A DNA stretch of 64,000 bases from Oscillospiraceae bacterium. Its GTDB lineage: Bacteria; Bacillota; Clostridia; Oscillospirales; Acutalibacteraceae. Under the pieces are notes generated by a model. The model ran no database searches. It saw only the letters and a program-made list of their open reading frames with translations, and had not been told where the DNA came from. The stretch spans positions 25,646 to 89,645 of the forward strand of contig JAISGQ010000009.1 in NCBI GenBank assembly GCA_031262985.1. Direction: 5' to 3'. Positions 5,504-64,000 of the stretch are shown piece after piece. Both the position numbers and the translations under genes were made by a program. Each line of letters opens with the position of its first letter. The first letter of the stretch is position 1.

Positions 5504-6493
5504 ATGTTTTCGATTGAAAAAGGACGGTGTAGGGTACATATGTCGGAGAATTTTGGGTTTGAGCCGTATGAGGGAAAAGAACCGTTTGTCTTTATCTGCT
5601 ACAAAACTGAGGACAAGAATGTCGTTTCTGAAATTGCGACGAGATTGAAGGATAGAGGAGTAAGAGTTTGGTACGATTGGGGGATAAATCCGGGTCAACA
5701 TTGGCGAACGGTTATCTCTGAGCATATTCGTGATTGTGTCGCCGTGTTGGCTTTTACCTCTCCGAATTTTTACAAACTCAACAATAATGATTCGGAGACA
5801 CTGTTGGAATTATCAATGGCAAAAGACAATTACAGGAAACCTATTTTACGAATCGAAATTGAGCAAGAAGATATAAATAAACATTCATCGTTTGTTTCTT
5901 ATTTACCTAACAGCATACAGTTTTCAAAATGGGACGGCAAGGATGATTGTTTAACAAAACTTATCGGAACGCTTGATAGAATGAACTGTGTTACAACAAG
6001 CAATGGTTCGTTGACAGTTGAGAAAACGGTTGCAGTACAACCCAGTAAACAAGTGAATCTTGAAGAATTTGATTTTATATGCAAGAAAACAATTGATGGT
6101 AAAGGTTGGATACTGATTGAATATACAGGTAAGGAAAAATATGTTACTGTGCCGGAAGGAATAACCGAGATAGGCAATAAGGCTTTCTATAAGTGCAAAC
6201 TACTCAAAAGTGTTACCATACCTAATAGTGTAACATCAATAGGAGATTATGCTTTCAATGATTGCTTCTCCTTAACACAAATCACCATACCTAATAGTGT
6301 AACATCAATAGGATGTTTTGCTTTCAATGATTGCTTCTCCTTAACGCAAATCACCATACCCAACAGCGTTACATCAATCGGCGCGGATGCTTTCTACAAT
6401 TGCCGCAATCTGACAATACAGACCCCCGCAGGCTCATATGCCGAGGAGTATGCTAAAGAAAAAAACATACGCTACCGCAGCATATATCAATAA
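5504..6493 (+). CDS. TIR domain fused to BspA-type (LRR_5) leucine-rich repeats
   Basis: N-term EPFVFICYKTEDKNVVSEIATRLKDRGVRVWYDWGINPGQHW...DSETLLELSMA (TIR with candidate catalytic Glu); C-term repeats VTIPNSVTSIGDYAFNDCFSLTQITIPNSVTSIG. Probable start MSENFGF at 5540. Confidence 0.85.
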   Translation: MFSIEKGRCRVHMSENFGFEPYEGKEPFVFICYKTEDKNVVSEIATRLKDRGVRVWYDWGINPGQHWRTVISEHIRDCVAVLAFTSPNFYKLNNNDSETLLELSMAKDNYRKPILRIEIEQEDINKHSSFVSYLPNSIQFSKWDGKDDCLTKLIGTLDRMNCVTTSNGSLTVEKTVAVQPSKQVNLEEFDFICKKTIDGKGWILIEYTGKEKYVTVPEGITEIGNKAFYKCKLLKSVTIPNSVTSIGDYAFNDCFSLTQITIPNSVTSIGCFAFNDCFSLTQITIPNSVTSIGADAFYNCRNLTIQTPAGSYAEEYAKEKNIRYRSIYQ

Positions 6494-7295: not shown

Positions 7296-7455
7296 TATTG
7301 CTCCGACAACTAAACCTTGCCATTTCTGGTCGGTCTTTTTACCGCCTTGCATCGTTATCGTCCTTGCCTTGCGTCAGCAAAGCGGCGTCCTCTGCCTCGC
7401 AAGACAGTAAAAATCCTCGACCATAATCTGGCAAGGTTTAGCCGCCGAAGCAATA
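7296..7455. repeat. Palindromic repeat family 3, copy A (160 bp)
   Basis: TIR TATTGCTCCGACAACTAAACCTTGCCA / TGGCAAGGTTTAGCCGCCGAAGCAATA; highly similar to 49836-50002. Confidence 0.85.
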
Positions 7456-7486
7456 GCGTAAAGAAAAGTATTCTGCAAATTATCGC

Positions 7487-20873: not shown

Positions 20874-20894
20874 TAACGGGCTACGGGCTACAAG

Positions 20895-21203
20895 CTGTTG
20901 CTAAGGAGGCTACTGACGGAGGTTGCAGTCTGAGGCTACTGACGGAGGTTGCAATCTGAGGCAACGGGCTTAAATTATGCAAAATTTTGGCAAGAAGTAG
21001 GTCGCAGGGCGACCTACACAGGGGAACCCCCGACGAGGGTTCCCCTACAAAAAAATGTCCTTAGGGACATTTTTCCTACCCTTCCTGCGTTTTTCTGACG
21101 ATAAGGGTATTTCGACCTCTGCGGAGGTCGACTTAGGACGCCGTCCTAAGAACCTGCAAGCCTTTGCAAAGGCTTGACCCAAACTCTAACTCCTTGGCAA
21201 CAG
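20895..21203. repeat. Repeat family 4, copy 1: string of six hairpins bounded by 14-bp inverted ends, inserted between parE and parC
   Basis: Ends CTGTTGCTAAGGAG / CTCCTTGGCAACAG; hairpins 20997-21017, 21021-21045, 21051-21074, 21112-21131, 21132-21150, 21157-21176; partial copy at 63775-63900. Confidence 0.8.
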
Positions 21204-21253
21204 ATTTTAGTTTGAGTATTAGTTTGAGATAAAACCGAAAGGCATGAGGCTAT

Positions 21254-28060: not shown

Positions 28061-28085
28061 TTTTGATTCCTTTCGGGGGCATACA

Positions 28086-28185
28086 CTAAATCAACAGAAA
28101 AACAATCAAGCCTCTATGGGCGAAAACCGCACAAATCAAAGCTTTTCGCTCGTGTTTTCTAGTTGTTTTCAAAGTTAATTAATCA
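28086..28185. repeat. Palindromic repeat family 2, copy a
   Basis: AACAATCAAGCCTCTATGGGCGAAAACCGCACAAATCAAAGCTTTTCGCTCGTGTTTTCTAGTTGTTTTCAA; inverse orientation to 50645-50746. Confidence 0.8.
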
Positions 28186-28443
28186 TAATGTTGAAAAATA
28201 TGCCTATATACTACTTTATTGTACCAAAATAACGAACCGCAATCAATGATGGAAATGTGTTTTTTGATTTTGGACAATTAAACTCGCAATAGCTCATCGT
28301 CCTCCAAAGATTTACATTTAAACTATTGACAATAATATAGTATAAACATACAATAGACGAATGAAACTTCAAGCAGGAGACGCGGACAGCTTTCACAATA
28401 TGTCACGGTTTGATTCTTCAAAAATTAATTTCGGAGGGTAAGT

Positions 28444-48539: not shown

Positions 48540-48681
48540 CATTAACATATTTTTCCACACAAAAAATCGCACAGGAATCGGAGTTGTCCACTTTTTCCAC
48601 ATAACTTTCCACATTAGAGAGAAAAATTTTCGGAAATTTTTGTAAAAGTCTTGCTCAAACGTCAAATTTATGTGATACTTA

Positions 48682-48838
48682 TACTGCTCCGCATTTAAAA
48701 GCATTGTTAGATTTGCGAGGATTTTTTTCGTCTGACAAGGCAGACGACGCCGGCTTGCTGGACGCAAGTCAAGGAGGATAACGAAGTCAGAGGAAAAAAA
48801 GACCGCAAAGATACAATGGTTTTAAACGCGGAGCAGTA
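48682..48838. repeat. Palindromic repeat family 1, copy B (157 bp, inverted)
   Basis: TACTGCTCCGCATTTAAAAGCATTG ... CAATGGTTTTAAACGCGGAGCAGTA. Confidence 0.87.
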
Positions 48839-48919
48839 TTATAAGTGCGGAGTAGTACTAATAGTCTTGTATGCAAGTGCTATCTGCAAGTGCTATATGT
48901 AAAGAGGGTGGAATAATTT

Positions 48920-49835: not shown

Positions 49836-50002
49836 TATTGCTCCGACAACCCTTTAAAAATCTTGCCAGATTATGGTCGGTCTTTTTACCGCCTTACATC
49901 GTTATCGTCCTTGCCTTGCGCCAGCAAAGCGGCGTCCTCTGCCTCGCAAGACAGTAAAAAGCCTCGACCATAATCTGGCAAGGTTTAGCCGCCGAATCAA
50001 TA
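49836..50002. repeat. Palindromic repeat family 3, copy B (167 bp)
   Basis: TATTGCTCCGACAACCC...CTTGCCAGATTATGGTCGG ... CCGACCATAATCTGGCAAGG-like end TTTAGCCGCCGAATCAATA; central region near-identical to 7296-7455. Confidence 0.87.
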
Positions 50003-50095
50003 ACTTAGAAAACAACAAGAAAACACGGGCAAAAAGCCCTGATTTGTGTGGTTTTTGCCCATGGAGGCTGGATTGTTTTGAATTTAATTTAATAT
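50001..50095. repeat. Palindromic repeat family 2, copy b
   Basis: TTAGAAAACAACAAGAAAACACGGGCAAAAAGCCCTGATTTGTGTGGTTTTTGCCCATGGAGGCTGGATTGTTTTGAATTTAA; abuts family 3 copy B. Confidence 0.82.
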
Positions 50096-50182
50096 ACTTT
50101 ACTTTTTAAAAAATATCCGTTACAATTTGTATAGTTAATTTAGTATGTTGACCAAACGAAAAATGAAAGAGGGTATTTGTCC

Positions 50183-50644: not shown

Positions 50645-50746
50645 TAGTTAATTAATTTAGAAAACACCAAGAAAACACGGGCGAAAAGCTTTGATTTGTG
50701 CGGTTTTCGCCCGTGGAGGCTTGATTGTTTTCAAATTAATTTAGTA
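50645..50746. repeat. Palindromic repeat family 2, copy c
   Basis: TTAGAAAACACCAAGAAAACACGGGCGAAAAGCTTTGATTTGTGCGGTTTTCGCCCGTGGAGGCTTGATTGTTTTCAAATTAATTTAG. Confidence 0.85.
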
Positions 50747-50756
50747 TATAAGCACA

Positions 50757-55684: not shown

Positions 55685-55707
55685 GGCAGGTACACCTCGC
55701 AGTATAA

Positions 55708-55967
55708 TACTACTCCGCATTTAAAACCATTGTATCTTTGCGGTCTTTTTTCCGCCTGACTGCGTTGTCCTTCTTGACTTGCGCCGGCAAGCCTGCGTCG
55801 TCCGCCATGACATCCTAATCTCTCGTAAAACGGTAAGCAAAAATCTGCGGAAAAACCGCATATATCAAAGCTTTTTCCTTGATTTTTGCACCGTTTTTAG
55901 TCGAGAATTAGTATCAGACGAAAAAAATCCTCGCAAATCTAACAATGCTTTTAAACGCGGAGCAGTA
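55708..55967. repeat. Palindromic repeat family 1, copy C (260 bp, interrupted)
   Basis: TACTACTCCGCATTTAAAACCATTG ... CAATGCTTTTAAACGCGGAGCAGTA with ~103-bp extra sequence. Confidence 0.87.
55812..55914. repeat. Diverged family-2-like palindrome nested inside family 1 copy C
   Basis: CTAATCTCTCGTAAAACGGTAAGCAAAAATCTGCGGAAAAACCGCATATATCAAAGCTTTTTCCTTGATTTTTGCACCGTTTTTAGTCGAGAATTAG; absent from copies A and B. Confidence 0.75.
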
Positions 55968-56108
55968 TAAGTCTCTTCTCCACAAGTTAAGAGACTTACT
56001 GCGAGGTGTTGCGCCTGTTGCGCTTTATTGCAGTGAAACGCTCCGGCGGCAAGGGAGGGGCGTTTCTTCCACTCTTCACTCGGAGCGGCAGGATGACAAG
56101 CGGCTTCC

Positions 56109-63583: not shown

Positions 63584-63732
63584 TTATTGGCTCGGCAATC
63601 AATTGAAAACCTTGCGTAATTATAGTCGAGGATTTTTACTGCCTTGCGAGGCAGTGGACGACGCTTTGCCGTCGCAAAGCGATGGCGATAACGCCGAAAA
63701 GGGAAGGTTTTTATTGGCTATCAGAGCAACAA
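63584..63732. repeat. Repeat family 3, copy C (diverged, inverted)
   Basis: GTCGAGGATTTTTACTGCCTTGCGAGGCAGTGGACGACGCTTTGC... = reverse complement of core of 7296-7455. Confidence 0.7.
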
Positions 63733-63774: not shown

Positions 63775-63900
63775 AAGTAGGTCGCACGGCGACCTACACA
63801 GGAAACCCCCGACGAGGGTTTCATTCCCTTCCATGCGTTTTTTGACGATAAAAGAATTTCGCCCTCTGCGGAGGGCGAGTTAGGGCTCTGCCCGATTCTA
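63775..63900. repeat. Repeat family 4, copy 2 (partial)
   Basis: AAGTAGGTCGCACGGCGACCTACACAGGAAACCCCCGACGAGGGTTTC...TCGCCCTCTGCGGAGGGCGA. Confidence 0.8.
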
Positions 63901-63993
63901 AATTAACTTAGAAAACAACAAAGAAAAGCGCGAAAAAGCTTTCGCATATGGGTTTTTTGGGCTTTTCTTGCATTGTTTTGTTAGTTAATTTTG
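63900..63993. repeat. Repeat family 2, copy e (diverged)
   Basis: AATTAACTTAGAAAACAACAAAGAAAAGCGCGAAAAAGC ... GGGCTTTTCTTGCATTGTTTTGTTAGTTAATTTT. Confidence 0.7.
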
Positions 63994-64000
63994 AATGTGA

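Follow-up and report, generated by a model that had tools for sequence, protein, structure and literature searches.

What is the string of hairpins that separates parE from parC in this Oscillospiraceae bacterium, how did it come to lie there, and what keeps its stems paired? The window analyzed here is a stretch of 64,000 nt (contig C45, 25646–89645) from a genome assembly (G000) of 1.96 Mb that is 79% complete. A preliminary description of this DNA had reported six consecutive near-perfect stem-loops within 14-bp inverted ends. Both are where it had placed them in the parE–parC gap, with the hairpins spanning 20997–21176 and the ends measuring 14–15 bp (Table 1). Folding of the 346-nt region gives −144.9 kcal/mol, compared with −99.9 ± 5.5 kcal/mol for shuffled sequences (z −8.2).

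Table 1. Parts of the parE–parC element, its second copy and a nested repeat family (window coordinates)
Feature	Position	Strand	Remarks
Left terminal inverted repeat GCTGTTGCTAAGGAG	20893..20907	+	13/15 positions match the right end in reverse complement (2 mismatches)
Left arm, with short tandem GGCTACTGACGGAGGTTGCA	20908..20996	+	Private to the window copy; BLAST puts the start of the others near 20995
Hairpin 1, GTAGGTCGC-AGG-GCGACCTAC	20997..21017	+	Pattern at 57 places in own genome; reversed control pattern, 0
Hairpin 2, GGGGAACCC..GGGTTCCCC	21021..21045	+	In 38 copies, G:C to A:T double changes and a paired length change
Hairpin 3, AAAAATGTCC-TTAG-GGACATTTTT	21051..21074	+	Inner stem invariant; outer stem hypervariable, mostly complementary (own-genome copies)
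Hairpin 4, TCGACCTC-TGCG-GAGGTCGA	21112..21131	+	Three double-changed pairs; TGCG loop kept across genera
Hairpin 5, CTTAGGAC-GCC-GTCCTAAG (21132–21150), then linker AACCTG	21132..21156	+	Linker is a mirror image of the 3′-arm start
Hairpin 6, CAAGCCTTTGCAAAGGCTTG (21157–21176), then conserved tail ACCCAAACTCTAA (AAACTTTT-type)	21157..21189	+	Best conserved portion across genera
Right terminal repeat CTCCTTGGCAACAGA	21190..21204	+	Kept in nearly all own-genome copies
Copy 2: hairpins 1 and 2, linker, hairpin 4, first part of hairpin 5, then nested palindromic repeat from ~63894	63777..64000	+	
Palindromic repeat family TAACTTAGAAAACAACAAGAAAACACGGGC...	28081–28187, 50001–50096, 50653–50748, 63904–64000		

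The second copy in the window differs from the first as had been described: hairpin 1 is altered in its loop only, stem 2 carries a G:C to A:T change and stem 4 an A:T to C:G change, and hairpin 3 is absent. Copy 2 is not merely shorter, as a different palindromic repeat sits within its hairpin 5, and this split-hairpin composite is multicopy too. It runs into the contig end at 64000 and hence is incomplete. The insert nested in its hairpin 5 belongs to a second palindromic repeat family (TAACTTAGAAAACAACAAGAAAACACGGGC...). Other repeats also populate the window. One dispersed family of inverted repeats (up to 159 nt, 94% identity) lies at 2661–2832, 48681–48839 and 55694–55968; a 142-nt repeat, likewise at 94% identity, lies at 7324–7465, 49871–50012 and 63607–63693, including a partial inverted copy beside copy 2. 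Three tandem 69-nt units (6215–6421) fall within an ORF at 5504–6493, which perhaps encodes a leucine-rich-repeat surface protein.

The parE–parC hairpin string is an insertion, because the gap, 380 bp here, spans just 11–50 bp in 16 of the 26 relatives measured, and because comparisons within the sister genus (G106 with G214) reveal empty sites with short AT-rich duplications. The duplications in G106 are inexact, at about 7, 5 and 13 bp, and no target duplication was found at the window copy. In another genus, an 891-nt insert in the parE–parC gap (L259 in G023) contains a fragment of the element and a NUDIX-like ORF. The window's genome carries about 60 copies of the element, at least 42 of them long copies detected by BLAST with the window copy region. 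These copies, the empty sites and the target duplications found in relatives (see below) bear out the proposal of a mobile repeat family.

To survey the family and the order we used a covariance model (R1) of the 3′ half of the element. Within the family, R1 had matches in 75 of 300 genomes, or 44 of the 135 genera sampled; an order-wide sample gave matches in 38 of 297 genomes from several families. The sister-genus genome G106 alone contains at least 150, and many gut Clostridia carry loads of tens to more than 100 copies per genome. The order of the hairpins is identical in distant genera, while the stem letters differ. In GTDB r220 the exact pattern of hairpins 1 and 2 had no match, and the pattern of hairpin 6 and its tail was found in more than 119 stretches, nearly all from Clostridia records. 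The element, about 245–315 bp long, is multicopy, intergenic and devoid of a coding gene, as is characteristic of MITEs. At one intergenic spot in two sister genomes (L281 in G106, L299 in G214) the copies are oppositely oriented, which suggests repeated insertion or flipping. One contig of G106 (C12; for example, 388733–389002, 410958–411230 and 470172–470446) also contains head-to-head symmetric elements of 269–379 bp, which consist of two hairpin 5–hairpin 6 ends with longer outer repeats.

Changes that preserve pairing are abundant among the copies. In an alignment of 38 own-genome copies (A3; 2,082 stem cells scored), 98.9% of stem cells pair, compared with 94.1% in shuffles, and both sides of a pair are changed in 103 cells, compared with 26.6; slid structures fail. 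Double changes affect 13 pairs in the own copies and 16 of 25 pairs across genera. Thus, the compensatory changes noticed earlier hold in the 38 copies, although the two window copies alone were too few to show them. Uncompensated stem mutations, the contrary observation that had been anticipated, are present yet rare (26/2,082 cells: 4 G.T, 18 A.C, of which 8 come from one allele, and 4 others). Hairpin alleles assort nearly freely, with 14 of 15 combinations of hairpins 4 and 5 observed, and columns are associated at close to the permuted level save within pairs and in a few linker and tail columns. Together with the absence of hairpin 3 from copy 2, this agrees with the suspected modularity of the units.

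The further step that had been taken, from paired changes to selection for the folded form, is not established: template switching during replication can yield the same paired arm changes (PMC8794818). The data fit folding selection and arm-to-arm template switching alike. In the latter case one arm would be copied onto the other, so that stems stay complementary without selection on folding. We regard this as a real possibility, to be held tentatively; it competes with the selection argument and leaves mobility untouched. The mechanism is on record (PMC8794818), near-identical copies display multibase paired changes, above all in the outer stem of hairpin 3, and one-sided intermediates are few. 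Against it, no inverted loop was seen among the aligned copies, and the core positions, besides being paired, do not vary in sequence, which suggests an added sequence-specific constraint.

In other genera, young copies carry terminal repeats CAGnnTGTnGAnAAA and 19–32-bp target duplications, mostly whole terminator hairpins. Terminal inverted repeats are clear in G102, G236 and G222; in the window's own genome just 4 of the 33 copies show the left repeat. The reverse complement of the window copy's right repeat, TCTGTTGCCAAGGAG, resembles the CAGTCTGTTGATAAAG end of one copy in G156. Among the nearly identical copies of G102 the right end is constant, and direct repeats that are themselves hairpins or palindromes flank five of eight young copies (28, 26, 26, 23 and 19 bp). 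Duplications of the same type measure 27 bp in G156 (L399) and, as a perfect repeat, 32 bp in G236 (L408). The one clean case in the own genome, at L020, is a perfect 24-bp duplication that is not a hairpin. The target duplications far exceed mismatched-flank controls: matched flanks in G102 score at least 12 in 5 of 29 cases, compared with 1.1% of mismatched pairs, while nested repeats confound the sets from G385 and G236. Six of nine duplications contain a perfect inverted repeat with arms of at least 7, as do only 17 of 4,000 random windows. Similarly, a hairpin lies within 45 nt upstream of 27 of 55 end-sequence matches, mostly abutting them, compared with 164 of 3,000 random positions. 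In the own genome a terminator adjoins the right end in 0 of 33 copies.

A candidate mobilizer emerged from an end-sequence search of viral contigs. This 1.6-kb element, L470, lies on an uncultivated viral contig from an unrelated sample, with its ends 1,593 bp apart (198–1791) and a hairpin at each. It encodes a 496-aa IS1182-family transposase (NF033551, E 7e-122), and its end, CAGACTGTCGAAAAAGTC, is shared with the hairpin-element end, CAGTCTGTCGAAAAAGT, as would be the case for an IS1182-derived MITE. L470 supports an IS1182 mobilizer by strong analogy, which is not proof for the window genus. The preliminary description had asked about identity to a known element class, and to this extent there is a match: in related genera the ends correspond to those of a known IS class. 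An earlier candidate, IS1202-type elements with their long duplications, gave way to IS1182 after L470. IS1272, a member of the IS1182 family, has terminator hairpins as its targets (PMC4923244), and attack at the 5′ feet has been proposed as a variant of its mechanism that duplicates the stem-loop (PMC5678879). In the own genome, no recurrent transposase or other gene lies within 1.5 kb of the copies, and this speaks against the group II intron or retron ends that had been considered. Distant inverted copy pairs enclose no autonomous element; a 3.5-kb pair in G106 encloses a citrate-synthase-like ORF and other ordinary ORFs.

Collectively, we think it probable that the parE–parC element is a copy of an old, order-wide, nonautonomous MITE-like family, most likely moved in trans by an IS1182-type DDE transposase. 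We infer the family and activity of the transposase as well as the joining chemistry and, because the hairpin core is shared, the same route for the window copy. The body is the conserved string (hairpin 1)–hairpin 2–hairpin 3–linker–hairpin 4–hairpin 5–hairpin 6–AAACTTTT within terminal inverted repeats, a gene-less substrate on which the transposase would act in trans. In related genera, insertion takes place at a palindrome's base, and the palindrome is usually a transcription terminator. Joining would probably involve the 5′ feet of the targeted stem-loop, such that the whole 19–32-bp hairpin comes to stand on either side of the element. Copies have spread between genes in both orientations, other repeats have nested into them, and they are reshuffled one hairpin at a time. 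Weighing against this reading are, in the own genome, the scarce left repeats, the right ends free of adjoining terminators, the nonhairpin duplication at L020 and the lack of a recurrent transposase within 1.5 kb of the copies; so are the short, inexact duplications of G106 and the fact that L470 was picked by its end motif and comes from a viral contig rather than a host genome of the family.

A MITE-like element that a different enzyme moves, be it a single-strand transposase or a DDE transposase of another family, and in which only some subfamilies have acquired IS1182-type ends, is unlikely but merits serious attention. The right end and left arm vary between genera, two-sided repeats are missing from most own copies, the G106 duplications are short and the symmetric elements of that genome carry other outer repeats. 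However, the subfamilies with clear CAGnnTGTnGAnAAA ends have the same hairpin core. Moreover, the Y1 transposase (PF01797) is absent from seven element-rich genomes, namely G000 (79% complete), G106, G156, G102, G157, G149 and G241, and a search for lagging-strand bias by GC skew found none (25 and 20 copies in the two orientations). On the absence of Y1 we reject REP/RAYT and IS200/605 elements, and the Y1-type single-strand mobility suggested earlier is not supported. Phage or plasmid carriage was searched for and gave no match.

Some columns covary in a register that antiparallel pairing and DNA copying do not produce. Stem 5 with the linker, and the hairpin 6 loop with the tail, covary in parallel (GGAC>CCTG, AGAC>TCTG, GGGC>CCCG, AGGC>TCCG), and in the own copies columns 144–161, 174–193 and 176–196 are perfectly associated. 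In many genera the hairpin 5 linker is a mirror image of the first letters of the 3′ arm: of 157 sequences, a set that includes some wrong-strand noise, 24% show a mirror of 4 nt, compared with 8.6% in shuffles (maximum 14.6%), and part of this excess may reflect relatedness. Intrastrand triplexes combine a purine arm, a pyrimidine arm and a parallel third pyrimidine strand, with a stem of at least 6 (PMC4666352). The candidates here comprise only three to five triads, below that 6-nt minimum, although the parallel covariation is present. It is improbable, though conceivable, that the element, when single-stranded, folds into hairpins to which short third strands attach in parallel (pyrimidine-motif triplexes), structures that a transposase or host factor would read, the hairpins being the unit of exchange between copies. 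Inherited linkage over ~20 nt is one alternative reading of the same covariation.

It is very unlikely that selection on transcripts keeps the element as a structured RNA or as a control element at the mRNA level (terminator, attenuator or 3′ stabilizer). The strong fold, the double-changed pairs within and across genera and the conserved TGCG loop would favor such a role. Yet by heuristic ORF calls the own copies are evenly oriented to their genes (16 ++, 16 −−, 6 divergent, 1 convergent), with a median of 37 nt from the right end to the next gene. A strand-specific RNA role is disfavored because orientation is neutral to both genes and GC skew, and with only one convergent site we reject a terminator-like 3′-end role. 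In addition, the unpaired cells lack the G.U character that a single RNA strand would tolerate, and the element is missing from the parE–parC gap of most relatives. Rfam covariance-model searches, in which the window had no match at the gathering cutoff and five element loci had no relevant match (E up to 5), lead us to reject a known RNA family.

Among described systems, MITEs, including QMITE2 of Coxiella (PMC10969869), are alike in being gene-less, intergenic and high in copy number, with terminal inverted repeats, target direct repeats and strong stem-loops. Here, in contrast, the body consists of separate hairpins whose sequential arrangement is kept throughout a taxonomic order, and the target duplications are 19–32 bp, mostly whole terminators. 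IS1272 and other IS1182 elements (PMC4923244, PMC5678879) share the DDE transposase family with the same ends, as seen in L470, and target hairpins by structure rather than sequence; IS1272 deletes or replaces the hairpin without duplication, whereas the gene-less element described here duplicates it. The pneumococcal BOX, RUP and SPRITE repeats (PMC10969869) are likewise intergenic, clustered and nested into one another; they belong to other hosts and are likened by description, not sequence. REP sequences and REPINs with RAYT are high-copy intergenic palindromes as well, but are 20–100 bp long compared with ~300 bp, and they differ from an element that has target duplications and occurs in several element-rich genomes without a Y1 transposase.

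The mobile repeat is widely spread and apparently undescribed. It would account for broken assemblies and changed operon spacing in many gut Clostridia. With young copies that duplicate whole terminators, structure-directed DDE transposition would become open to testing beyond the staphylococci, and the copy load combined with paired stem changes would offer a natural test bed for folding selection versus template-switch repair of palindromes.
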